A stretch of DNA of 42,078 bases from Campylobacteraceae bacterium (lineage in GTDB: Bacteria; Campylobacterota; Campylobacteria; Campylobacterales; Sulfurovaceae), in NCBI GenBank assembly GCA_027038275.1, contig JALVXC010000089.1:1-42078 (forward strand), written 5' to 3'. Below are positions 12,924 to 26,580 of the stretch, piece after piece. Position 1 is the first letter of the stretch. Each line of letters begins with the position of its first letter. The notes under the pieces were generated by a model. That model was not told the DNA's origin and searched no databases. It saw nothing but the letters and a program-made list of their open reading frames with translations. A program made the translations under genes and the position numbers.

Positions 12924-13265
12924 TTAAAGAGCCTCAGCGTCAGTTTCACCTGTACGTACTCTTACAACATGAGATATGTCAGAGACAAAGATTTTACCAT
13001 CACCAATTTTACCAGTGTGAGCAGCCTCTTTTATGGCATTTACTGCTGTATCTGCAAACTCTTGTGTGCTTACTATAATCTCAATCTTAACTTTTGGAAT
13101 AAACTCAACTACATACTCAGCTCCTCTGTATAGTTCAGAGTGACCTTGTTGTCGCCCATAACCTTTAACTTCTGAGATTGTCATACCCTCAATTCCAGCT
13201 TCTACTAGTGCCTCTTTTACATCTTCTAGCTTAAATGGCTTAATTATTGCTTCAATTTTTTTCAT
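12924..13265 (-). CDS. glnK: PII nitrogen regulatory protein
   Basis: The 113-residue protein is a complete PII signal protein, which senses ATP/ADP and 2-oxoglutarate and can plug the Amt channel. It shows [12 protein letters not shown] at the start and a T-loop with Y46 and Y51 in the standard positions (E-L-Y-R-G-A-E-Y). The usual G-K-I-G-D-G-K-I-F nucleotide loop and V-R-V-R-T-G-E end follow. It lies 36 bases after amt and shares its transcript, which favours glnK over glnB. Whether Tyr51 is uridylylated here cannot be told from the sequence. Confidence 0.93.
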
Positions 13266-13301
13266 ATTTATATCCTTTGAATTGTATTTAAGAATGAACC
13301 T

Positions 13302-14618
13302 TTATAGATTCATTCCTCTCTCACCATGAACTGATTCATCAAGACCAATCTCTTCACACTCTGCATCAACTCTACCACCACCAGTAAGTGCAGATGCTAC
13401 AAAATAAACAATAACAGTACCAACAAGTGTCCATGCTCCAACAATAAGAACAGACTCTACTTGAACCATAAATTGACCCATTCTGTCACCAGACTCTTTA
13501 AGTGGACCGTCCCAAAGTAAATCTTGGTCATTAAGAGCAAGAAGACCAGTCATTAGTGCACCCCAAAGACCTGCTAGGAAGTGAATACCAAATGCATCAA
13601 GAGAGTCATCGTATTTGAACATCTTTTTAAGACCTACAACACCGAAGAATCCAATAACTGAACCACCGATACCTACAATAAATGCTCCACCAACGCTTAC
13701 AAAACCAGCAGCAGGAGTAATAGCAACTAACCCAGCGACAATACCAGAAGCAAGACCAAGAAGAGTTGGCTTTTTGTAAACAACCCACTCAATTACCATC
13801 CATGCAATACCAGCAGCAGCAGTAGCTACAGTTGTTGTAAGTAGAGCCACACCAGCAACAGCATTAGCACCAAAAGCAGAACCTGCGTTAAATCCATACC
13901 AACCGAACCATAAAATCGCTGCACCAACAGCTGTAAGAATGATAGAGAAAGGTTTCATAGCAGTTTTATTATATCCAGCTCTTTTACCTACTAAGATAGC
14001 AAGAACAAGACCTGCTAGACCACCGTTCATGTGTACAACAGTACCACCAGCAAAATCTAAAGCACCTGCATCAAAAAGTAATGCACCATCTCCACCCCAA
14101 ACCATGTGAGTAATTGGAGCATAAACAACAAGTCCCCAAATTGCTACAAATATAAGCCATGTAGAGAACTTCATACGTTCAATAACTGAACCAGAAGCAA
14201 TCGCTACTGTAATAGCTGCAAAAGTACCTTGGAATGCAATAAATACAAACTCAGGATAATTTGCAGTTGCAGAGAGTGCCTTCCAGTCTGTAGCAGAGAG
14301 AAGAATATTTCCAAAACCACCTATAAACTGTTGCATACCAGCTGAACTAGCTGTTCCAAATGCAAGTGAGTAACCTGCAACAATCCACATAACAAATGCA
14401 ACTACAAATGCACCCATAACCATTGTAAACGTATTAAGTGCATTTTTACTTCGTGTCATACCTGCATAAAATAGTGCAAGACCAGCTGGTGTCATAAGTA
14501 ATACAAATGCAGTAGAGACCATCATCCATGCTGTATCACCAGAATCGAGTTTGTCCTCAGCAAATGTAAGAACGGGTAGGGCTAACAGTGTTAGCAGTGC
14601 TAGAAATTTATTTTTCAT
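13302..14618 (-). CDS. amt: Ammonium transporter
   Basis: The 438-residue membrane protein of the Amt/Mep/Rh family carries ammonium across the inner membrane. A cleavable N-terminal segment (to about Ala20) is followed by about eleven membrane helices. Family landmarks are D-T-A-W-M-M at the external start, F-Y-A-G-M-T-R-S-K-N, D-F-A-G-G-T-V-V-H-M-N-G-G with the first pore His, and F-G-I-H-F-L-A-G-L-W-G with the second. AAGGAG precedes the ATG, and glnK follows in the same operon, the usual arrangement for PII control. Confidence 0.95.
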   Translation of the reverse strand: MKNKFLALLTLLALPVLTFAEDKLDSGDTAWMMVSTAFVLLMTPAGLALFYAGMTRSKNALNTFTMVMGAFVVAFVMWIVAGYSLAFGTASSAGMQQFIGGFGNILLSATDWKALSATANYPEFVFIAFQGTFAAITVAIASGSVIERMKFSTWLIFVAIWGLVVYAPITHMVWGGDGALLFDAGALDFAGGTVVHMNGGLAGLVLAILVGKRAGYNKTAMKPFSIILTAVGAAILWFGWYGFNAGSAFGANAVAGVALLTTTVATAAAGIAWMVIEWVVYKKPTLLGLASGIVAGLVAITPAAGFVSVGGAFIVGIGGSVIGFFGVVGLKKMFKYDDSLDAFGIHFLAGLWGALMTGLLALNDQDLLWDGPLKESGDRMGQFMVQVESVLIVGAWTLVGTVIVYFVASALTGGGRVDAECEEIGLDESVHGERGMNL

Positions 14619-14797: not shown

Positions 14798-14827
14798 TTG
14801 CAAAAGTTAAACCTTTTATGTTATCAT
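14798..14827 (+). promoter_or_regulatory. Promoter of porin 1
   Basis: TTGCAA (14798-14803) and TATCAT (14822-14827) are separated by 18 bases, with 33 bases between the -10 and the ATG. The same arrangement, at the same distances, lies before the second porin, which argues for a real duplicated promoter. Confidence 0.6.
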
Positions 14828-14860
14828 GATTTTACAATTTCATATAAAAGGAGTAAATAC

Positions 14861-15994
14861 ATGAAGTTTATAAAGTTAAGTTTAATTGCAGCATTAGCTG
14901 TAACAACAGCAATGGCGGGGGATGCTAAAATTTCTGGAGATGCAAAAGTTTTTTATAGTACATCAGATGCAAATAAAGCAGACCTTTTTGATAAAGGTGC
15001 AAACTCAATGGGTGATGCCGCTATAAGTCTTGATTATTCAAGAGATATTGCAGATGGAGTCTCATTAAATGCAGGAGTGACAGGTGTTTCAACTCTAGGT
15101 CTTGAAAGTACACTTGTTGGTGCTACATGGATTGACCATGCATTAAAAGATAGAGCATGGATTGATGTTGCTAATGTAACAGCAAAACTTGGAAATACTA
15201 CAGCTGTAATTGGTCGTCAAAAACTTGACACACCTTTGGCATTTACTGAAACTTGGAATATTGCAGAGAATACATTTGATGCATTTACATTTGTAAATAG
15301 CGATTTAACTGATACTACATTGGTTGCTTCTGCTGTTACTAGAGCAAATGGTGGTGAATTTACAAATATTCAAGGTGGTATGACAGATGTAGGTGAAGGT
15401 ATCTATGCATTTGGTGCTGTAACTAAACTTATTCCAAATACAACAGCACAACTTTGGTACTATGATTTTGCACATAATGATAACAAAAAACTATGGGTAC
15501 AAGCAGATGCAAATGTAGCTAGTGGTATAACTGCTGGTGTTCAATATGCTAAAGCAATGGTTGATAATGGAGATGACTCTTCAGTTATAGCTGCAAAATT
15601 AGGTTATGATGCTAAGCCAATGAGTCTATATGCAGCTTATTCAAAAGCTGATGATAAAGGTACACTTGGTTTTGCTAACTATGGTGGATTTGGTGCTTCA
15701 AAGCTCTATACAGAAGCATGGTGGAACTTAGGATTTGTATCTAAACCAGGTGCTCAAGCTGTTGCTGTTGGTGCTTCAACAGATGTTTCAGGTCTTGGAC
15801 TTACTGCTCAATATACTACAGTAACAAATGATAGTAATCTTGCATCTGATGAGATGGATGAAGTTACATTAACAGCAACTAAAAAAGTTGGACCTGTTGA
15901 TGCTACATTGGCATTAATTAATACTTCATCTGATGATGATACTATTGATGGTAATACAGTTCAAGCTTACATAACTGTACCTTTTTCACTTTAA
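14861..15994 (+). CDS. Outer-membrane porin 1
   Basis: The 377-residue protein has a signal peptide ending in A-M-A. The mature part is made of alternating short strands rich in Ala, Gly, Thr and aromatic residues, as in a beta-barrel porin. It ends in T-V-P-F-S-L, a plausible outer-membrane terminal strand. The frame stays open upstream to 14798, but AAAAGGAG is correctly placed only for the ATG at 14861, and the longer version would bury the signal peptide and overlap the promoter. The next gene is a clear paralogue. The substrate cannot be inferred. Confidence 0.85.
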   Translation: MKFIKLSLIAALAVTTAMAGDAKISGDAKVFYSTSDANKADLFDKGANSMGDAAISLDYSRDIADGVSLNAGVTGVSTLGLESTLVGATWIDHALKDRAWIDVANVTAKLGNTTAVIGRQKLDTPLAFTETWNIAENTFDAFTFVNSDLTDTTLVASAVTRANGGEFTNIQGGMTDVGEGIYAFGAVTKLIPNTTAQLWYYDFAHNDNKKLWVQADANVASGITAGVQYAKAMVDNGDDSSVIAAKLGYDAKPMSLYAAYSKADDKGTLGFANYGGFGASKLYTEAWWNLGFVSKPGAQAVAVGASTDVSGLGLTAQYTTVTNDSNLASDEMDEVTLTATKKVGPVDATLALINTSSDDDTIDGNTVQAYITVPFSL

Positions 15995-16000
15995 TAAATA

Positions 16001-16029
16001 AATAACCATGAGTTTATCTCATGGTTATT
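16001..16029 (+). terminator. Terminator after porin 1
   Basis: A perfect 12-bp stem (AATAACCATGAG / CTCATGGTTATT) with a 5-base loop lies 6 bases after the stop codon and is followed by a T-rich stretch. Confidence 0.75.
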
Positions 16030-16072
16030 ATCTCTTTTTCCCCTTTCTTTAATTTAAATTATAACTATATAT

Positions 16073-16102
16073 TTGCAAAAATAAATTCTTTTATGTTATT
16101 AT
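16073..16102 (+). promoter_or_regulatory. Promoter of porin 2
   Basis: TTGCAA (16073-16078) and TATTAT (16097-16102) are 18 bases apart, and the flanking sequence closely resembles the porin 1 promoter, including CTTTTATGTTAT across the spacer and -10. Confidence 0.6.
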
Positions 16103-16135
16103 GATTTTTTAATTTAATATATGAGGAATAGATAA

Positions 16136-17293
16136 GTGAAGTTTAAAAAAATAAGTTTAATAACACTATTAGCTATAACAACAGCAATGGCAGATAATGC
16201 GAAGATTTCAGGAGATGCTAAACTATATTATAGCACTTTTGATGGTGGAGAGAGTGACCTCTTTAGTAAAACAGGGTCAATAGGAGATACAGCACTAGAG
16301 CTTAAGTACTCAAGAAACTTAAAAGAGGGGATTGTTATTAATGCTGGTATTACTGGTGTCTCCACATTGGGTTTAGAGGATAGTTTAGTTTCTGGAACAT
16401 GGGTAAATCATAATGGTGGAGTTAAAGACCAAGCATATATTGATACAGCAAATATTGTTGCAAAAGTGGCAACAAATACAACTTTAGTGGTTGGTCGTCA
16501 AGAGCTAGATACTCCATTTTTTTACTCCGAAAAATGGAATATTGTACCAAATACCTTTGATGCCGTTGTAGCTGTTAACAATGATATTCCCGATACAACA
16601 TTTGTTGGTGCATGGGTTGGTAGAGGAGATGGTGATGCTAAAACAGTAAATGCAGTTAATGGAAATGGAGGGTTTAGCTCTTTTGGAGGTCACCCTGCTT
16701 ATGCATTTGGTTTAATTAATAAAAGTATTCCAAATACAGCTGTACAAGCTTGGTACTATCAAGTTCCATCTACAGCAAAAGCATACTGGTTACAAGCTGA
16801 TACAGCTATAACTAAAGAGACTTCGCTTGGACTTCAATATGCAAATGCTAAAAATAGTAATGAGTCTGACAGTAGTCAAGCGGCTGCTGTAAAAGTTGGT
16901 TATGCTGCTGGTCCTTTAACATCACATGTTGCTTACTCAAAAAGAAGTTCTGTTGGTTCAATTGATATTGCAAATATTGCTACAGGTGGTGGTGAGTCAA
17001 AACTCTATACAGAGGCTTTTTTAAACTATGGTCTAGTAGGTTCTCGTAAAGCTGAGACTATTGCTGTAGGTGCAGACTATGATATTGGAACAGCTGAACT
17101 TGGTCTACTCTATACCTCTGTTGATACAGATAAATTAAACAGTGATGTAAAAGAGGTTGCGTTAACGGCAACTACAAAAGTTGGACCAGTTGATACAACT
17201 TTTGCATTTATTAATACTGATGCAAAAGGTGCTAATTCAGCTCTTGATGGTAATACAGTTCAAGCTTACTTAACAGTCCCTTTCTCACTTTAA
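16136..17293 (+). CDS. Outer-membrane porin 2 (paralogue of porin 1)
   Basis: The 385-residue protein has the same layout as porin 1: a signal peptide ending A-M-A, a start of mature sequence with A-K-I-S-G-D-A-K, matching strands throughout (for example V-V-G-R-Q-E-L-D-T-P against V-I-G-R-Q-K-L-D-T-P), and the end T-V-P-F-S-L. It starts with GTG; GAGGAA precedes it at a proper distance. It carries loop insertions relative to porin 1, including a Gly/Asn-rich one near residue 170. A tandem duplication including the promoter is the simplest origin. Substrate unknown. Confidence 0.85.
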   Translation: MKFKKISLITLLAITTAMADNAKISGDAKLYYSTFDGGESDLFSKTGSIGDTALELKYSRNLKEGIVINAGITGVSTLGLEDSLVSGTWVNHNGGVKDQAYIDTANIVAKVATNTTLVVGRQELDTPFFYSEKWNIVPNTFDAVVAVNNDIPDTTFVGAWVGRGDGDAKTVNAVNGNGGFSSFGGHPAYAFGLINKSIPNTAVQAWYYQVPSTAKAYWLQADTAITKETSLGLQYANAKNSNESDSSQAAAVKVGYAAGPLTSHVAYSKRSSVGSIDIANIATGGGESKLYTEAFLNYGLVGSRKAETIAVGADYDIGTAELGLLYTSVDTDKLNSDVKEVALTATTKVGPVDTTFAFINTDAKGANSALDGNTVQAYLTVPFSL

Positions 17294-17319: not shown

Positions 17320-17452
17320 TCTATTAAAAATTCTCTAAAATCAAAACTTCAAATACCATAAAACTATAAGAAATAAAACTAATTTTCTCACTAAAAACAA
17401 TAAAAAGTTACAAAAAAACACATAAAATGTTAAAAAATATCAAATTTAATGT

Positions 17453-17458
17453 TATAAT
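17453..17458 (+). promoter_or_regulatory. Probable -10 box of the PilJ-like/NIT-kinase operon
   Basis: TATAAT lies 94 bases before the first gene of the operon. The implied transcript would begin just before a short ORF with its own ribosome-binding site. A second TATAAT at 17526-17531 is close to the start codon and is a weaker alternative. Confidence 0.5.
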
Positions 17459-17477
17459 AGCAGATGGGGAAGTTGAG

Positions 17478-17516
17478 ATGAATGCTCTAACGCTTCTCTC
17501 ATACCTCCTCAATTAA
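17478..17516 (+). CDS. Possible 12-residue Leu-rich leader peptide
   Basis: ATG at 17478 opens a 12-codon frame, MNALTLLSYLLN, ending with TAA at 17514. GGGGAAG lies five bases upstream, a good ribosome-binding site. Five of twelve codons are Leu, all of CTN type and three of them CTC, which is unusual in this AT-rich genome. CTCCT within the frame (17505-17509) is complementary to AGGAG of the next gene's ribosome-binding site (17542-17546). Expression and any attenuation role are inference. Confidence 0.35.
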   Translation: MNALTLLSYLLN

Positions 17517-17552
17517 TTTATTACTTATAATCAAAAGAGTAAGGAGAAAAAA

Positions 17553-18329
17553 ATGAAAAAATTTTATATGAGTTTAATAATTATATTTTTTGCAACAACT
17601 AGTGCATTTGCTAAGACAGGAATATCAAATGCAGAAAAATTAGAGTTAATCAATATTGTCAATCAACAGCAAATTCTTTCACAACGGATTTCAAAGGCAT
17701 ATTTGTATGTTAACAAAACAAATGTATCGGGCAATGCCGATAAGCAGTTAAAGAGTGCATTAAAGAGTTTTTATAAAACATACTCTACAATTAACACCTC
17801 TACAAAGAGTCCACAAATTAGAACTATAATGGCTTATATTAAAAAAAGTTCTAATAAGTTTAATAGATTGGTCAAGCAACCACATAGTAAAGAGAATACA
17901 AAAAAGATTTTAGACCTTAGTGCGGATGTTTTGGCAAAAAGTAAAAAGGTGGCAACTTTGTTGAAAAAAGATTTAAATAAGAATATATATGAGGCTATGG
18001 AAAAGTCAAATCAACAACAGGTTTTAGCAGAGAAGATTGCAACTTATTGTAAAGCTTTAGAGTTAAATAAAGATGATGAGGTACTTAAACAGAAAATAAA
18101 AGTTGCTATTGAAACATTTGCTATAAATCATAAAAAACTGATGAACAATAAACAGAATAGTAAAATAATCTCAAAAAAGTTAAAAGAGGTCGATACAATT
18201 TGGAAAACAGCTTATCCCATTTATGAGGGTAAGGCATCATTTATCAACTCTTTTGTATTTAATTCAACAACTAGAATTTCAAAAAAGATGAAAGAGATAT
18301 CTAAATTATATATGGCAATGAAAAAATAA
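17553..18329 (+). CDS. Periplasmic protein with two PilJ-like sensor repeats
   Basis: The 258-residue protein has a signal peptide ending near A-F-A. It contains two helical segments of the type IV pili methyl-accepting transducer N-terminal (PilJ) kind. The first starts with N-Q-Q-Q-I-L-S-Q-R-I-S-K-A-Y and the second with N-Q-Q-Q-V-L-A-E-K-I-A-T-Y. In known proteins this motif lies in periplasmic ligand-binding bundles. No membrane anchor or signalling domain follows, so it is probably a free periplasmic sensor or binding protein. AAGGAG precedes the ATG. Its stop overlaps the next start by one base (TAATG). A role as partner of the downstream kinase is inferred from the operon. Confidence 0.75.
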   Translation: MKKFYMSLIIIFFATTSAFAKTGISNAEKLELINIVNQQQILSQRISKAYLYVNKTNVSGNADKQLKSALKSFYKTYSTINTSTKSPQIRTIMAYIKKSSNKFNRLVKQPHSKENTKKILDLSADVLAKSKKVATLLKKDLNKNIYEAMEKSNQQQVLAEKIATYCKALELNKDDEVLKQKIKVAIETFAINHKKLMNNKQNSKIISKKLKEVDTIWKTAYPIYEGKASFINSFVFNSTTRISKKMKEISKLYMAMKK

Positions 18330-19078
18330 TGAAAAAAACAATTTTAATAGTAATTTTCTTCTCAGCACTACTGTTTGGTTCAACGAGAGGAGATGTAAAG
18401 ATTATTGAAGCTTCTGAAAATATTCAATATTTAAGTCAGAAGATTGCTGTTGATTATCTACTTCTCTATAATAAAGAGGGTGACAACCTTTTAAAAAGAA
18501 GAATAGAGAAGAATATAGAGAGATTAGAGTCGTTTGCAAATGAGATATGGGAAATGACTAAAAGTGATAGTACTAAATACTATATAAACTATTTTAAATT
18601 AGACTTAAAAGATATTAAAGCGATTATTAATAAAAAGAAAAGTATTGCAAATGTAAATCTGATTTTAGCTTATGGTGAAGAGTTTATTGAGGGGTCTGAT
18701 GCTATTATTAAAGAGCATCAGTATAAATATACTAAAGAGGAGAAGATGTTGATGTTGAGCAAAAAGGCTCAATATCTCTTTGAGTATATAACAAGCTACT
18801 ATATGGCATCAAAAATAGGCTTAAGCAATGATTTCAATAGAGAGAAAATGTATCAAGCTATAGCTAAAATAGATAAGATTTTAAGAGAGGTTAATGAGTA
18901 TAGCTACTCTAAAGAGCTCAAAAAAAGGGTTGAACAAATTTGCACTATTTGGACAACCAATAAAGCATTTTTTAACAACCAAGATGGGCTTTATATTCCA
19001 CATATTCTATTGCACTCTACTCAATATAGTCAAGATATTTTAGAAGAGATTGAGAGATATCATAAGAAAAATTTATAA
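18329..19078 (+). CDS. Second periplasmic PilJ-like protein
   Basis: The 249-residue protein has a signal peptide (about residues 1-17) and, like its neighbour, two helical halves. One begins I-Q-Y-L-S-Q-K-I-A-V-D-Y and the other K-A-Q-Y-L-F-E-Y-I-T-S-Y. The motif is weaker than in the upstream protein and lacks the Arg after S-Q, so the ligand may differ. There is no membrane anchor. It is translationally coupled to the gene before it and 12 bases from the hybrid kinase after it. A diverged paralogue of the upstream protein is likely. Confidence 0.65.
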   Translation: MKKTILIVIFFSALLFGSTRGDVKIIEASENIQYLSQKIAVDYLLLYNKEGDNLLKRRIEKNIERLESFANEIWEMTKSDSTKYYINYFKLDLKDIKAIINKKKSIANVNLILAYGEEFIEGSDAIIKEHQYKYTKEEKMLMLSKKAQYLFEYITSYYMASKIGLSNDFNREKMYQAIAKIDKILREVNEYSYSKELKKRVEQICTIWTTNKAFFNNQDGLYIPHILLHSTQYSQDILEEIERYHKKNL

Positions 19079-19090
19079 CTAAGGAACTAC

Positions 19091-21625
19091 TTGAGATTTC
19101 TAAACTTACGCAATATATTATATATTATTATTTCTGTTTTTGCACTATTAAGTATATCTTTTGTTACATATAAGTTATACAGCTTCTATCAAGAGTATCA
19201 AAATATTAAAGATAGAAATAATCGTTATTACTATTTTAATGACTTAAATAGACTTCTAAAAAACATTGAAAATGAACGCTTTTTATCTTCTAGCTATTTA
19301 AGTACATCATTAGGGTTTGATGAGCTTAAAGAGAAGAGATTGCAAGTCAATAGTTTATTGAAAGATAGTAGATTATCTATTGATAAAACTCTTTCGACTA
19401 TTCGTCTTCGAGTGGATAAACACAATATTAGTTATAATGAGATGATATATGATGCTTATGAAAAGAGAGTTATTGAGCCAATTCTTGTAGAGATGCAAGA
19501 ACTTGCCTCTTCAAGAGAAGAAAAAAATATTTTAATGTTAGCTAAGTTACGCAATAGTATAGAGATAGAAGAGAGTTTTTTATCTTTTATGCTTTTAAGG
19601 TCTAAAGCGATGAGTAGTAGTGATTTAAAGTTTTGGGACAATATTATTGCAAATAGAACTTTACCATATTTTATGCAGAGTAGAAGATTTACCACTAAAC
19701 ATTTTAGAGATATTGGAGATAAAGAGTATACTCAAATTTTGATAGATTCGGCAACTGGAAAGTATGGTATTACTTTTGATAGATGGCACTACTTGACCAT
19801 GCAAAAGCTTGAAAAAATTAACCATATAGAAAATACTTTTAATGGTTATGCAGTAAAAAAGCTCAATAAAAGTATATCAGATATTGAGTATCAGATAAAA
19901 AAGTACTTTTCAGTACTACTTCTTCTTGTTCTTCTATTTATACTTGTACTCTTTTCTCTATACTATTTTTTTAAAATGCGTAAAGAGGCATATTACCTTA
20001 AAAATACCCTTAGAAATATTGAAGTAGATATAGATGTTGACAAGAGAAGAGAGCTAGAGTATCTTCTTAAACGAAATAATAGTATTGAAATATATAAGTT
20101 TCTTGCTAATGCAATTAAAGAACCAAATCGTGCAAAAGACCTCTTTTTAGCAAATATGTCACATGAGATACGAACTCCCCTAAATGGAATTGTAGGTTTT
20201 ACAAAAGAGTTACGCCAGACACCTCTAAATGCTGACCAAGAGGAGATGCTCTCTATTATTGAAGAGAGCTCTAACCAATTGATTCATATTGTTAATGATA
20301 TTTTAGATTTTTCTAAAATTAAAGCAGGAAGAGTTGAGCTAGAGTCTATACCTTTTGACCCTATTGCTACTTTTGAATCATCAGTTGATACTTTTATAGC
20401 TAAAGCACGAGAAAAAAATGTTGAGTTAAAAGTTAATATTGACCCAAATATTCCTAAAGGGCTTATAGGTGACCCTACAAAGCTTTCTCAAATTTTAAGT
20501 AATTTAATCTCTAATGCTATTAAGTTTACAGAAGCAGACGGTTTAGTTATTGTCTCAATATTAAAGGTAATAGAGAATGATGAAAATGCACTACTAAAAT
20601 TTAAGGTTAAAGATTCAGGTATAGGAGTAAGTAAAGAGGAGAGAAAGAAGATTTTTGAAGCCTTTTCACAAGCAGATGTAAGTACCAATAGAAAGTATGG
20701 AGGTACAGGGTTAGGGCTTAGTATATCAAGTCAGTTTATTCAATATATGGGAGGAGAGTTGGAGATAGAAAGTGAAGTTGGAGAGGGCACTACATTTTTC
20801 TTCTCTTTAACTTTTGAGAAGACTTCCTCTTCTACTAGATACAATAGATTGAACTACTCCTCTTATAGTGTGGGGTATGTGCCTCCTATTATTCCTCAAT
20901 GTGTTGATAGATACCTAAAGAACTATGTTGAGTTCTATGGTTCAAAATTTAAGACCTATAACCGATATGAGATTCTAAATTTAGAAAAAAATGAGTTACC
21001 AGACCTACTTTTTATGGATTATAAGTGTTTTAAGAGTCAAAAACAACTAGAGGTCTTTTTAGATTTACCTCTAAAAACAGTTTTAATTGTTGCAGATAAT
21101 AGAGAAGATGAGTTAGTTAAAGTAAGAGATAAGATAGATTATCTTCTTCATAAGCCTGTTAATTTTACACGTACACTAAAAGCACTAGATATATTAGTTT
21201 GTCAAAAGCAAGATAGTGATGTAAAACAAGAGTTTAAAACTATTAGGTTTATAAATAGAAAAGCACTAATTGCAGAGGATAATAAAATTAATCAAAAGCT
21301 TATGAGAAATATTTTAGAGCGTTTTGGTTTTGACGTAACAATAGTAGAGAATGGCAAAGAGGCAATTGAGTCTCGTAAAGAGAGTAGTTTTGATATTATT
21401 TTTATGGATATTCAAATGCCTATTATGGGAGGAGTTGAGGCAACTAAGAAGATTTTGGCTTTAGAAAAAGAGGAGTCAAAAGAGCATATTCCAATTGTTG
21501 CTTTAACAGCTAATGCATTAGAGGGAGATAGAGAGAAGTACTTAAATTTTGGTATGGACGGATATTTATCAAAACCTATTAATATGAGTAATTTAGAGAA
21601 AATTTTAGTAACCTTTATTAGTTAA
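19091..21625 (+). CDS. Hybrid sensor histidine kinase with NIT-like periplasmic domain
   Basis: The 844-residue membrane kinase starts with TTG after AAGGA. Two membrane helices (about residues 9-30 and 272-294) flank a 240-residue helical periplasmic domain. Its N-E-R-F-L-S-S-S-Y-L motif and following Arg/Leu-rich helices resemble the nitrate/nitrite-sensing NIT domain. No HAMP is evident. HisKA has S-H-E-I-R-T-P-L with the phosphorylated His at 358; HATPase has N-L-I-S-N-A-I-K-F, D-S-G-I-G-V and G-G-T-G-L-G-L. A degenerate receiver-like stretch (about 590-710) precedes a complete receiver with phospho-acceptor Asp773 and a K-P-I end. No output domain is present, so it must pass phosphate to another protein. 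The ligand is unproven. Confidence 0.9.
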   Translation: MRFLNLRNILYIIISVFALLSISFVTYKLYSFYQEYQNIKDRNNRYYYFNDLNRLLKNIENERFLSSSYLSTSLGFDELKEKRLQVNSLLKDSRLSIDKTLSTIRLRVDKHNISYNEMIYDAYEKRVIEPILVEMQELASSREEKNILMLAKLRNSIEIEESFLSFMLLRSKAMSSSDLKFWDNIIANRTLPYFMQSRRFTTKHFRDIGDKEYTQILIDSATGKYGITFDRWHYLTMQKLEKINHIENTFNGYAVKKLNKSISDIEYQIKKYFSVLLLLVLLFILVLFSLYYFFKMRKEAYYLKNTLRNIEVDIDVDKRRELEYLLKRNNSIEIYKFLANAIKEPNRAKDLFLANMSHEIRTPLNGIVGFTKELRQTPLNADQEEMLSIIEESSNQLIHIVNDILDFSKIKAGRVELESIPFDPIATFESSVDTFIAKAREKNVELKVNIDPNIPKGLIGDPTKLSQILSNLISNAIKFTEADGLVIVSILKVIENDENALLKFKVKDSGIGVSKEERKKIFEAFSQADVSTNRKYGGTGLGLSISSQFIQYMGGELEIESEVGEGTTFFFSLTFEKTSSSTRYNRLNYSSYSVGYVPPIIPQCVDRYLKNYVEFYGSKFKTYNRYEILNLEKNELPDLLFMDYKCFKSQKQLEVFLDLPLKTVLIVADNREDELVKVRDKIDYLLHKPVNFTRTLKALDILVCQKQDSDVKQEFKTIRFINRKALIAEDNKINQKLMRNILERFGFDVTIVENGKEAIESRKESSFDIIFMDIQMPIMGGVEATKKILALEKEESKEHIPIVALTANALEGDREKYLNFGMDGYLSKPINMSNLEKILVTFIS

Positions 21626-22313
21626 TTGCAGGAATCTCTAAAATAACCTCTTGCTTTTTAAAATGAATATTTATATGATTTTTATGTGCTAAAAGTTCAA
21701 TATCTCTATCGTTATTTGCATCTCTTTTATTACTTTTAAGTTGAATAACAATAATTGAGTAGCGTTTATTTTTAACTACAACTCGTTCACCTAATTTAAT
21801 TTTTATAAGTATATCTACACTTTTGCTCTCTTCAAATTGTGTAAAGATGTTTCGTAGAAGTAGAGAGAAGTTATTTTGGTGAATTTGAAATTTAGGTATA
21901 TCGTAGTCAGTTATAAGTTTGATTTTTCCTTTATATCTCATATTAAAGAGTTCTATGTTTGCTTGTAGTAGGACATTTATATCAGTTAATGTGTATCCAT
22001 CTAGTAGGTTACTATTATTTATAGTTGCCATTGGTTTGTTGTAGAGGTAGATTCCTATATAATCTTCATTATCATAGAGCACATTAATTCCATAGAATTC
22101 AAAAGAGTTAAAAGATAGGTGTAATACAGTTTTTTGTGAGCCAAAAGTTTGAGGTGCATGAGTAAGTGCAATATCAAAAATCTCTTTAGGTAGACAAGAG
22201 CCCATAAGAAGTTCAGCTGAGGTATTAAGGTACTTTATTTTACCTTGGTTATTAAACAAGATAAAGGGATTAGAGTCATTTTCTATAAAAAACTTAAAAT
22301 TAATCGAGTCCAT
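21618..22313 (-). CDS. PAS-domain protein with degenerate kinase-like C-terminus
   Basis: The preferred start at 22313 gives 231 residues; an upstream in-frame ATG at 22355 would add 14 and lie deeper in the preceding gene. Residues about 1-95 form a PAS-like domain (P-F-I-L-F-N-N-Q-G-K-I-K-Y-L-N). The rest resembles a sensor kinase of the NtrB kind by its I-N-V-L-L-Q-A-N-I-E-L-F helix and the L-L-L-R-N-I-F region where an N-box would be. I see no phospho-acceptor His motif and no glycine-rich ATP boxes, so it is probably not an active kinase. It overlaps the Fis-type gene by 14 bases and its stop overlaps that of the hybrid kinase gene on the other strand by 8. Confidence 0.65.
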   Translation of the reverse strand: MDSINFKFFIENDSNPFILFNNQGKIKYLNTSAELLMGSCLPKEIFDIALTHAPQTFGSQKTVLHLSFNSFEFYGINVLYDNEDYIGIYLYNKPMATINNSNLLDGYTLTDINVLLQANIELFNMRYKGKIKLITDYDIPKFQIHQNNFSLLLRNIFTQFEESKSVDILIKIKLGERVVVKNKRYSIIVIQLKSNKRDANNDRDIELLAHKNHINIHFKKQEVILEIPAIN

Positions 22314-23034
22314 GTTCTTGTATCTTCTTTCGTAAGGTATTTCGATTGAGTCCAAGGACAGCTGAGAGTTTAAGTTGAGATTTAAATTTTTTTAAACCAG
22401 CAATAAGTAGAGGCTCTTCATATAGACAGATATTTTCTCTATAGGCATTATTTCCATCTAAATTCTCATATAGATACTCTTCAAGTATATTTTTTATCTC
22501 TTTACTGGTAATAGTTTTATAAATAAGCTCTTTATAGAGGGAGGCTCTAAGAGATTTTATATTTTCACTCAAATCAAGTTTAGTTGTATCAAGCTCAACA
22601 TGGTAGTCAAACATTAACTCTTTTTCTATCTGATTTTGAAAAAATTTGATTAGAAGGTCCAAATCTTCTCGCTCTTTTAGATTTGGCATTCTGTAGATAA
22701 AGGCAAATTTATTCTCTATCTTCTCTGTATTCTCTATACGGTTAGCAATAGCAATAATACGTTTGTTTTCAAAATTTAACTGTTCAAAGTTAAGCAGTTT
22801 CTCAAAGTTGTAGATAATAAGTTCACTGTTACTCTCAAGTACAATTTCTAACTCTTCATAATTGATTGCATCAATATATATTGAGTTTGGAAAGAGACTT
22901 TTTATAAGTGTTTTTTTACCTATATGCTCTTCTCCTACCAACAAAGAGGAGACAAAAAGAGACCTAGTTAGGGTTAACCCTTTAACAATATTATCTATTT
23001 GATGCGAATTGCTTAAAAAATGAACAGATTTCAT
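22300..23034 (-). CDS. Reduced NtrC-like regulator with Fis-type DNA-binding domain
   Basis: The 244-residue protein ends in a Fis-type helix-turn-helix (S-A-V-L-G-L-N-R-N-T-L-R-K-K-I). The front resembles a worn sigma-54 activator AAA+ domain: G-E-E-H-I-G-K-K-T-L in place of Walker A, I-I-Y-N-F-E-K-L where Walker B would be, K-R-I-I-A-I-A-N-R for sensor I, and P-N-L-K-E-R-E-D-L. The GAFTGA loop needed to contact sigma-54 is missing, so it should not act as a sigma-54 activator. No receiver domain is present. The PAS protein gene overlaps its end. A repressor or architectural role is possible. No ribosome-binding site is seen. Confidence 0.7.
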   Translation of the reverse strand: MKSVHFLSNSHQIDNIVKGLTLTRSLFVSSLLVGEEHIGKKTLIKSLFPNSIYIDAINYEELEIVLESNSELIIYNFEKLLNFEQLNFENKRIIAIANRIENTEKIENKFAFIYRMPNLKEREDLDLLIKFFQNQIEKELMFDYHVELDTTKLDLSENIKSLRASLYKELIYKTITSKEIKNILEEYLYENLDGNNAYRENICLYEEPLLIAGLKKFKSQLKLSAVLGLNRNTLRKKIQEHGLD

Positions 23035-23646: not shown

Positions 23647-26580
23647 TTACTTTTCTTCATAATGTAGTTTTATCCCTTTTGAGGTCATAACAAAGCCTGA
23701 AATAAGAATTCTTCCCTCATGTACTAACTTATGGTGTCTTTTGCATAGTGGAATTAGATTGTACTTATGATTCTTATTAATTGAGCCAATCATTCCTGCA
23801 TCATTAGCTAAGTTCTGTTGGGCAATATGGTGAACATCATCAACTCTATCTTCACATAAGGCACATTTTGTAACGTAGAGTTCTCTGTTGTATCGGCTAC
23901 GTTTTTTTAAAGAGAGCTGTTTTAGTTCTGAACTCTTTCCTAAAAGGCTCTGGCGAATCTCATAAGCATTTTTTAGAAAACTCGTATCCATATGTAGAGA
24001 TTTAGCAAACTCTAAACCATAAAGAGAAGAGCCCATACCAAGTTGAAGTTGACGATTGTAGATAAGTGTGTCACTCTCTTCATCGTAAGTTACCCCTAAA
24101 TGTAGTAAAATTAAAGAGTCTACCTTTTGAAGCTTCTCAATATTTTTAAGTTGATGCAGATGTGTAGCAAAGATAAATGTAGCATCTAACTCTAAAAGCT
24201 TTAAGATAGCCCCTGCAACAATGGCAAGTCCTGATTCGGTCTCTGTTCCTTGTGAAATCTCATCTCCTAAAATAAGGCTCTTTTGGGTAGCACGATTAAA
24301 GATATTTTTTAGCTCCATCATCTCTACAGCAAAAGTAGAGAGTCCCTTATAGAGATTATCATGAGAGACAATACGTGTAAAAAGTTGCTCGTACATACCA
24401 AGTCGTAGCTCTTTTGCAGGAACAAAAAAACCAGCTTGGGCTAGTATGACCGAGAGACCAATGCTCTTCATAAGTGAAGATTTCCCTGAAGAGTTAATGC
24501 CATATAGTAAAATGCCATTAACTTTTGCTCCATTACTTGCCTTGAGTGTAATGTGGTTGTGTTTAGTCTCTAAGCCCTCACCTAAGTAGATATCATTTGG
24601 AACATAGACTCCACGCTGTTCATTTGCCTCTATAATAAGATGTCGTAGACCTATAGCCTCATAGGCATTGCACTCATCTACTAAAATAGGAGGTGTAAGA
24701 TTCATACTCTTTGCACACTTGGCATTTGAGATAGCTACATCTATATTGGCAATAAAGACAATAAGCTCATTGAGTAGGTGAGAGAAGCGATTCTCTAGTG
24801 CTATTAGGGTTTGCAAGTAACGCTCTTTGACAAGAGAGACTAATTTGACTTGGTTGTTCTCATAGATTTGTGTTATCTCTTCAAATAGTTTAGAGTTAAT
24901 CTTAACGCTATTTTTAAGATGTTTATAGTGAAAGTCTTTAAAGAAGTAGTGTTTACCCTCAATTGTTACAAAGGACTCTTTTAACTCCTTTTCAATCATA
25001 GTAAAACGATTTTTTGTAAGGTTGATGGTGTAGCCCTCACTCTCTAAGTAACCAATCTCTGAAAAAGAGCTTTTTGTTGAGTTTATGCGTTTATCTTGTT
25101 CAAAAAATTGGTCAATATGGGAAGAGACTCTCTCTAGTTTATCAATTTCATAATTCTGCTTCTCTAAAAGGGTATCAAGAGCAGGGTAGACACCCTCTTT
25201 AAAGATGTTGTCATCTATCTGGTCAATACGAAATTTTGCACATATATCAAGGTTAAAGGTCTGCTCTAGGTAGGCTTTAAACTCAGAGACTTTGGTAGTA
25301 AGGCTATCTTCAATAGTTATCTTATGTTGTGTTGCATCAGCAAGAAGTTGCTCTATTGCTCTAAGAGACATCATAATATAGGTTAGCTCTACAGGGTGAA
25401 GTTTTTGAAGTTTAATACGTCTAGTAATTCTCTCTAAATCGTAGATATTTTTTAGGTGGGTATCGTACTGTTCGCTATAGGGTAGAAGTTTTTGACTAAG
25501 CTCATAACGCCTCTTTAAAATCTCTTTGTCTACAATGGGGTTAAGTAGTCGTTCACGAAGGAGTCTCTTTCCAAAGGCTGTGGAGGTTTTATCAATTAAT
25601 TGTAAAAGTGTTACATCAGATTTATTTCGAGAGATAACTCCTAGTTGCTCTAAAGCATTATTTCCTAAATAGAGATAGCGACTCTCTCCTAAAAAGATAG
25701 GGTGGTTCATCTTTGCTATAATTGCTTCATCATGCTCTATTATAAACTCAATAAGTATAGCAAGAGCTTCAGTAGTATAGGGGTAACGCTCCAAATCAAG
25801 ATACTCAATGGGTGAGAGAAAAGAGTTAATCTGATAGACCCGTTTAAAGAGCTCATTTTGATAACTAATCTTACAATGTTTCTCATTGAATGAGGTAGAG
25901 AACTGCCCTAGCTCCAGATAGGAGGAGAGCCACTCTTTATCTATCTGCTTGTTCTGTAGAGTAACAATAACTTCAGCTGTATTGTAGGTTTGTAGAAGGT
26001 TAAAGAGAATATCCAATGCATAGGTTTTGTCATCTCGGTTAGAGTGCATCTCATTGACAATGGTCTTTCCTGTAGTCACATCTATTGCTGAATATCCAAC
26101 AGAGTAGACACCTTGGTTTTCATCTACTGTAAGTGAGACTAGATTACTCTCTATGGCTTCTGTTTGGTACTCAAAGTTAGTCCCTGGAGAGATAATATTG
26201 GAGACATAACGTTGAACTTTAGGAGGTAGACCCTTTTGTTTAACCATAACAATAGTGTATTTTTTAGTCTCTATAAGTCGTGCAAGATAACGCTCAATCG
26301 AGACTGTAGGAACTCCTGCAAGTAGAGGATTTTTAATAGAGTTTTCAAGAATAGTTTTGTTTTTACGAGTAAGTTGAATATTTAGTAGTTGTGCTATCTC
26401 TTTGGCTTTTCCAATCTTAAGTTCATCGTTGTTGACCTCATAGAGTTCAAAAAAACTACCAATCTCCATTAGTATAATTGTATTTTCACCATATTTGGAC
26501 TCAAAGTGTTTTTGAAGTTCAAAGTAGATTTCAGTAAGAAGTTTACCCTTTGATGAGAGAATTTTTGCAGATGTTTCCAA
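23647..26580 (-). CDS. MutS-family mismatch repair protein fused to an HNH nuclease (MutS7-like)
   Basis: The 977-residue protein has a MutS mismatch-recognition domain near the start with G-S-F-F-E-L-Y, keeping the Phe and Glu that insert at mismatches. Connector, lever and clamp regions follow, then an ATPase with G-I-N-S-S-G-K-S-S Walker A (about residue 690), G-D-E-I-S-Q-G-T-E Walker B and A-T-H-L-H-Q-L. A C-terminal HNH nuclease (about 900-977) has C-A-L-C, D-D-V-H-H-I and L-I-P-L-C-K-R-H-H. MutS with terminal HNH defines the MutS7 group known from Campylobacterota, giant viruses and octocoral mitochondria. As the group is understood, the fused nuclease could replace MutL. Start is TTG with a poor ribosome-binding site. 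Confidence 0.9.

Follow-up and report, generated by a model that had tools for sequence, protein, structure and literature searches.

The window analysed here, the whole 42,078-nucleotide stretch at positions 1 to 42,078 of contig JALVXC010000089.1 (assembly GCA_027038275.1, Campylobacteraceae bacterium), carries three co-directional genes, arranged head to tail in a tight operon, that encode two secreted proteins with paired PilJ-type domains (P1 and P2) and a hybrid histidine kinase with a NIT-type periplasmic domain. We propose that cassettes of this kind specify a three-layer periplasmic sensor, in which soluble co-sensors would act on the kinase through an adaptor. We consider it rather probable that the system works in this way, with an ancestral ligand that was probably nitrate-like and a window copy that would be retuned or ligand-blind. 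The features concerned are the following.

17430..17458, forward strand: promoter-like site TTAAAA-17-TATAAT, with TG before the -10 hexamer, 5' of P1 (consensus scan)
17553..18329, forward strand: P1, secreted, with two predicted PilJ-type four-helix bundles (open reading frame, 258 aa)
18329..19078, forward strand: P2, secreted double-PilJ homologue of the array-terminal clade, proposed adaptor to the kinase (open reading frame, 249 aa)
19091..21625, forward strand: hybrid histidine kinase with NIT-type periplasmic domain (844 aa, TTG start, domain matches)

A preliminary description of this stretch had seen three tightly coupled genes here, and this is confirmed by the 1-nt overlap of P1 and P2, the 12-bp gap between P2 and the kinase gene, and selection: compared with four close relatives, the ratio of nonsynonymous to synonymous substitutions (dN/dS) is 0.10–0.24 for P1, P2 and the kinase, and all three are under purifying selection. 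The promoter-like site has 10 of 12 consensus matches and is weak, the total of such sites being barely above that in shuffled sequences. P1 and P2 each begin with a signal-peptide-like N-terminus and contain no later hydrophobic segments; from this N-terminal sequence both are predicted to be periplasmic. The kinase has two transmembrane segments that enclose the periplasmic NIT-type domain, followed by HisKA (residues 348–413), HATPase (460–575) and receivers, with the REC match at 726–838. Its catalytic motifs are intact, with H358 in HisKA and D773 in the canonical receiver, and we read the region between HATPase and this receiver as a degenerate receiver. It contains no Hpt domain and is devoid of the extra C-terminal pseudo-receiver present in longer relatives.

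The combination of two free double-PilJ proteins with a NIT-type hybrid kinase is supported by the profile matches of relatives and by AlphaFold2 folds. Window P1 matches the Pfam PilJ profile (PF13675) with an E-value of 8e-5 and 23.1 bits, under the 26.6-bit cut-off, and window P2 taken singly gave no match to this or any other profile. Among orthologues, the profile is matched at E<=0.01 by 41 of 41 P1 proteins (best 5e-22), and by 12 of 49 P2 proteins. P2 is a homologue of P1 according to HHalign, which aligned it with the P1 family over its whole length (99.9%, E 2e-35), and PilJ-type four-helix bundles are attributed to it by this homology. The window kinase sensor taken singly likewise has no profile match, including to NIT (PF08376), which is matched by 32 of the 46 aligned kinase sensors (best 1.3e-15). 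A PDB sequence search with the P2 and kinase-sensor profiles returned chance matches only, so that a comparison of folds was needed. The P1 model (pLDDT 89.6) has eight helices that make up two bundles, and the kinase sensor model (89.7) is confident and helical. Among solved structures, the P1 model comes closest to the NasR NIT domain (4akk_B), with Z 19.2 across 241 residues. The same chain aligns with the kinase sensor model at Z 19.7 (root-mean-square deviation, rmsd, 4.8; 238 aligned), the runner-up being at Z 10.2. A single P1 bundle resembles PilJ (7zjr, Z 15.5, rmsd 2.1, 115 aa) and McpN (6gcv, Z 14.6, rmsd 2.3, 113 aa). These models predict for P1 PilJ-type four-helix bundles arranged as in a NIT domain, and for the kinase periplasmic domain the double four-helix-bundle NIT fold of NasR, which are the helical bundles expected in the preliminary description. 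HHalign found no match between the kinase sensor and the P1 family; we therefore claim for the secreted partner P1 and the sensor a shared predicted fold, not shared descent.

The order of P2 and kinase is strictly conserved. The P2 family, used as query in an independent scan of 84,980 species genomes, gave 50 loci, all in Sulfurovum, Nitratifractor or unassigned Campylobacterota metagenome-assembled genomes. The kinase is the next gene after P2 in 48 of 48 readable loci, with gaps of -59 to 18 bp, mostly 4–18 bp, and the gene directly before the kinase always belongs to one clade, that of P2. The test of conserved order set in the preliminary description is thus answered positively, but conservation does not extend over Campylobacterota at large: the cassette is limited to Sulfurovum/Nitratifractor-type lineages plus one further family. 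P2 is present in 76 of the 150 genomes of the family of the window's genome; outside it, clear matches were found in that one further family only, among 397 genomes sampled within the order. Over about 55 loci, the arrays comprise 1–6 double-PilJ genes per cassette, with varied flanks. The window's genome has a second, canonical module with three double-PilJ genes (contig C84, locus L029) and two orphan double-PilJ proteins, and compared with the larger arrays of this family the window copy is shortened and divergent. At two loci a 139-aa array protein with P1-like ends and a missing middle replaces P1 (L037, 9395–9814; L047, 9159–9578). Secreted PilJ-module proteins of 560 aa also occur without a kinase (L044, 7332–9014, with four modules; L043, 8266–9957), in a small conserved operon.

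The members of an array differ in the GxxR motif, the nitrate contact of NarX/NarQ and McpN (PMC8199190, PMC6381276). R61 of McpN is the arginine of this motif, and its replacement by alanine abolished nitrate binding (PMC6381276). In the P1 clade, GxxR is found in 34 of 39 first repeats and 31 of 39 second repeats. It is present in 32/34 and 32/34 of the next upstream array proteins, and in 11/12 and 11/12 of the fourth ones. The P2 clade has it in 1 of 47 proteins; the first bundle of this clade carries the motif EA[ST]ENI[RQ]YLSQK (residues 28–38 of window P2), and the anion motif is missing from the second. Array proteins are not equivalent: P1 and the members of longer arrays look like binders, and P2 looks like an adaptor. 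In the window itself, P1 has NQQQ instead of GxxR at residues 37–40 and 153–156, and P2 has ENIQ and KKAQ at the corresponding positions. The motif is also absent from the subclade to which the window copy belongs (the window, L038, L039–L042 and L032), where GxxR is found in 0/7 at every position: P1 has lost it in both bundles, mostly to NQQQ, and P2 repeat 1 has glutamine for arginine in 7/7. It was correct that the arginine-rich nitrate contact is not obvious in this copy; judged from these alignments, it is a derived loss within the subclade, from arginine to glutamine in both P1 repeats.

Where the binding site lies can be asked by comparison with the kinase NIT domain. Some related kinases have no PilJ partner, namely a stand-alone clade of about 880 aa and a clade encoded in a PAS-protein operon. 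The NIT arginine that matches R63 of the window kinase is kept in 18/19 of these partnerless kinases versus 26/46 of the PilJ-associated ones (Fisher p 0.003, uncorrected for phylogeny). In two kinases, L029 of the window's genome and L048, the first NIT bundle has been lost (occupancy 0.18) and the second kept (1.0), and both have GxxR-bearing partners. Relaxation of R63 and loss of bundle 1 beside partners that keep GxxR point to the soluble proteins as the binders, and the retention of bundle 2 points to this bundle as the docking surface. Sensing thus appears to have moved out of the kinase NIT domain into the soluble proteins. In the window kinase, the site that matches GxxR reads ERFLSSSY, in which the motif is not found, and the second basic NIT position (213) is tyrosine in the five closest members.

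Covariation suggests how the layers are connected. Distance matrices were compared across 41 modules, using partial correlations with bootstrap. P2 and the kinase sensor are correlated at 0.40 (bootstrap 0.23–0.55) given the kinase core and P1, P1 and the sensor at -0.05 given the kinase core and P2, and P1 and P2 at 0.67. The N-terminal half of P2 tracks P1 (0.86), and the C-terminal half of the sensor is tracked by the C-terminal half of P2 (0.45) versus 0.15 for the N-terminal half. The pattern persists with a substitution-weighted distance and after removal of two odd modules. It gives moderate support to a wiring in which P1 would contact P2 and P2 the kinase, and suggests that P2 is an adaptor between P1-type proteins and the kinase. 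The preliminary description had proposed soluble co-sensors; conservation and covariation favour this part, but the two proteins are not equivalent, P2 being adaptor-like and P1 binder-like.

As the sequences show, each operon encodes one hybrid kinase, whose periplasmic domain is of NIT type, along with 1–6 secreted proteins of double-PilJ type. We propose that, ancestrally, P1 and the array proteins encoded upstream of it bound a small, planar anion, with nitrate as the likeliest candidate; the GxxR arginines of the two bundles would reproduce, within one molecule, the dimer site of NarX/McpN. The N-terminal bundle of P2 may pair with P1-type proteins, and its C-terminal bundle may use the second NIT bundle of the kinase as its docking site. 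To judge from the domain content, docking would alter kinase activity and phosphate would pass from H358 to D773; an Hpt or response regulator whose gene lies elsewhere would receive it next, and one possible output is cyclic di-GMP turnover. The window copy would have a different ligand, or form a ligand-independent branch, rather than being a nitrate sensor.

Nitrate is our best guess for the ligand of the canonical modules, in view of the motif and of the co-occurrence of the module with NapA (64/76 versus 41/74, p 1.6e-4, phylogeny and completeness uncorrected). Loss of nitrate respiration was rejected as the reason for the loss of GxxR, since the GxxR-less genomes mostly carry NapA. Purifying selection, the loss of GxxR and the general retention of NapA together suggest that the window copy most likely answers another ligand or transmits something besides ligand occupancy. 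Among the flanks are, in the window, Amt and PII genes (12924–14618) and porin genes; phosphate transport genes and truA also occur, and a molybdopterin oxidoreductase of the formate dehydrogenase/assimilatory nitrate reductase type adjoins L039. Amt and PII hint at a nitrogen context and may be incidental. We looked among the loci for a constant neighbour from which the ligand could be named, but the flanks vary and none was accepted.

Several points weigh against the three-layer sensor. The order of the P1-P2-sensor correlations is also the gene order, and recombination linkage may contribute to it. However, two observations would not be expected from linkage alone: the sensor tracks P2 no less closely than it tracks its own kinase core (71–98% of bootstraps, depending on the measure), and the C-terminal half of P2 tracks the more distant half of the sensor no less well than the near half. 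The window kinase still has R63. The association with NapA carries no correction for phylogeny or completeness, and GxxR-less modules occur in NapA-positive genomes. Finally, one NIT domain tested elsewhere bound no nitrate (PMC6381276), which means that the fold does not fix the ligand.

A bolder version of the three-layer sensor can be put forward tentatively. Sensing would have left the kinase. Each protein of the expandable array, a pseudo-dimeric protein of NIT fold, could recognise its own anion and report through P2 to a NIT-derived docking domain. The whole would be a receptor with several inputs, which would evolve through gene duplication, and the window module would read a ligand novel for PilJ/NIT domains. 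It is rather doubtful that nitrate or nitrite is still the signal of the window copy, read by the NIT domain of the kinase or at a glutamine-based P1 site. The nitrogen-related neighbours in the subclade (Amt, PII, and the molybdopterin oxidoreductase by L039) and the NapA carried by subclade genomes are in line with this idea. These neighbours vary between loci, however, and are maybe incidental. The change from arginine to glutamine in both P1 repeats and P2 repeat 1 of all seven members, the effect of R61A in McpN (PMC6381276) and the tyrosine at NIT position 213 also argue against nitrate. A further explanation, which we regard as unlikely, is that sensing is done by the kinase's NIT domain itself, with the secreted proteins serving as ligand buffers, scavengers or structural components that leave the kinase untouched. 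The window kinase does have a full NIT domain with R63, and the existence of related kinases without PilJ partners means that a NIT domain can work alone. However, the half-NIT kinases (L029, L048) keep their PilJ partners, R63 is relaxed in kinases that have such partners, the covariation of P2 and sensor exceeds the shared history with the kinase core, and the adjacency of P2 and kinase is invariable. That the window copy is a decaying paralogue beside the complete C84 module is suggested by its shortened array and its loss of GxxR and the C-terminal pseudo-receiver, with a canonical copy in the same genome, but decay is rejected as very improbable from the dN/dS values, the catalytic motifs being intact as well, and window-type copies are kept in five genomes at species level, while two others have GxxR-less relatives.

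The three-layer sensor shares single elements with several known systems. NarX and NarQ of E. coli also combine a PilJ-type helical sensor, a histidine kinase and GxxR (here in the ancestral array proteins), but their sensor lies within the kinase and their site across a dimer, whereas the cassette has separate secreted tandem PilJ proteins, a HisKA hybrid kinase with NIT-type sensor and receivers and, in the window copy, no GxxR. The Klebsiella oxytoca antiterminator NasR (4akk) has two four-helix bundles, as do P1 and the kinase sensor in their models, but it is a cytosolic one-component RNA-binding regulator with no kinase and no partner proteins. McpN (6gcv) and PilJ (7zjr) share the single-bundle fold, but they are membrane-anchored chemoreceptors of which the PilJ domain is covalently a part. 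In TorT-TorS, LuxP-LuxQ, GltB-GtrS, XylFII-LytS and QseG-QseE, a soluble partner senses and a membrane kinase, often hybrid, transduces. The working principle is likely the same here, with a soluble, predicted periplasmic partner encoded together with a hybrid kinase. However, the partners in those systems are mostly of periplasmic-binding-protein folds, or a lipoprotein, with one per kinase. P1 is predicted to be all-helical with two bundles and not of that fold, and the cassette partners would share the NIT/PilJ fold with the sensor, come in expandable tandem arrays and have a dedicated last member. GltB-GtrS (PMC7927077) and QseG-QseE (PMC12691602) have been documented as examples. The Streptomyces conservon kinases CvnA are likewise a NIT-domain family in which, once the kinase has lost its own domain, sensing passes to accessory proteins, CvnF/CvnE (PMC13343842), but CvnF/CvnE are GAF or P450 proteins proposed to act near the HATPase domains, neither secreted nor PilJ, in another phylum. 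In the open-access literature we found no paper describing free PilJ arrays with a NIT kinase, which agrees with the absence of a described system of this layout noted in the preliminary description, and none on Sulfurovum and PilJ or on Campylobacterota nitrate-sensor kinases. A soluble partner for a membrane kinase is thus already known; new would be the fold of the partner, the array arrangement, the adaptor and the apparent relocation of the binding site. The earlier interpretation is, overall, partly supported.

No cognate response regulator or Hpt adjoining the cassette was found in the window. In L032, of the window subclade, a REC-GGDEF-EAL gene follows the cassette at 0 bp, and the window's genome encodes a protein 54% identical to its product. 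Cyclic di-GMP turnover is a possible output of the window system, as judged from these genes. FIST proteins of the NosP type are nitric oxide sensors. At L061, L078 and L086, a FIST protein and a second hybrid kinase are encoded upstream of the arrays, with LuxR-type regulators nearby, and in L078 and L086 a weakly matching Hpt-like protein is encoded near these genes. A di-haem cytochrome c peroxidase gene of the MauG family lies within or directly before the PilJ array at L060 (9111–10103), L063 (9390–10379) and L074 (4487–5497), for which a redox or peroxide link is possible. The FIST/kinase, peroxidase and REC-GGDEF-EAL neighbours are taken as leads only.

Directly 5' of the cassette, on the forward strand at 14798–17293, lie two tandem, clearly related porin genes; L041 and L042 have one porin there. 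Convergent with the kinase, two overlapping genes occupy 21618–23034 on the reverse strand. One product (244 aa) has a Walker-A-like stretch and a Fis/NtrC-type helix-turn-helix end without an AAA+ domain; the other (245 aa) is NtrB-like without recognised domains. The pair is kept in L040 and L042; since a similar pair is also found without the cassette in another genus (L044), these genes were rejected as cassette partners. Further along the reverse strand, at 23647–26580, a MutS-like protein with domains I–III and V and an HNH-like C-terminal end is encoded, which we take to resemble the MutS7/HNH type of epsilonproteobacteria and octocoral mitochondria.

The PilJ and NIT modules known so far belong to single receptors, whereas in this cassette they occur free, in arrays beside a kinase whose sensor is predicted to have a related fold. 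Natural intermediates exist, namely kinases that lack partners and kinases that have them, the latter with either a complete NIT domain or half of one; they allow the study of how sensing may shift from a membrane protein to soluble co-sensors and how a nitrate-type site may be retuned. The hosts of the cassette are vent-dwelling Sulfurovum-like bacteria. For these sulfur-oxidising vent bacteria, which have no nitrate sensor kinase in the literature searched, the system would be a first candidate route of periplasmic sensing.

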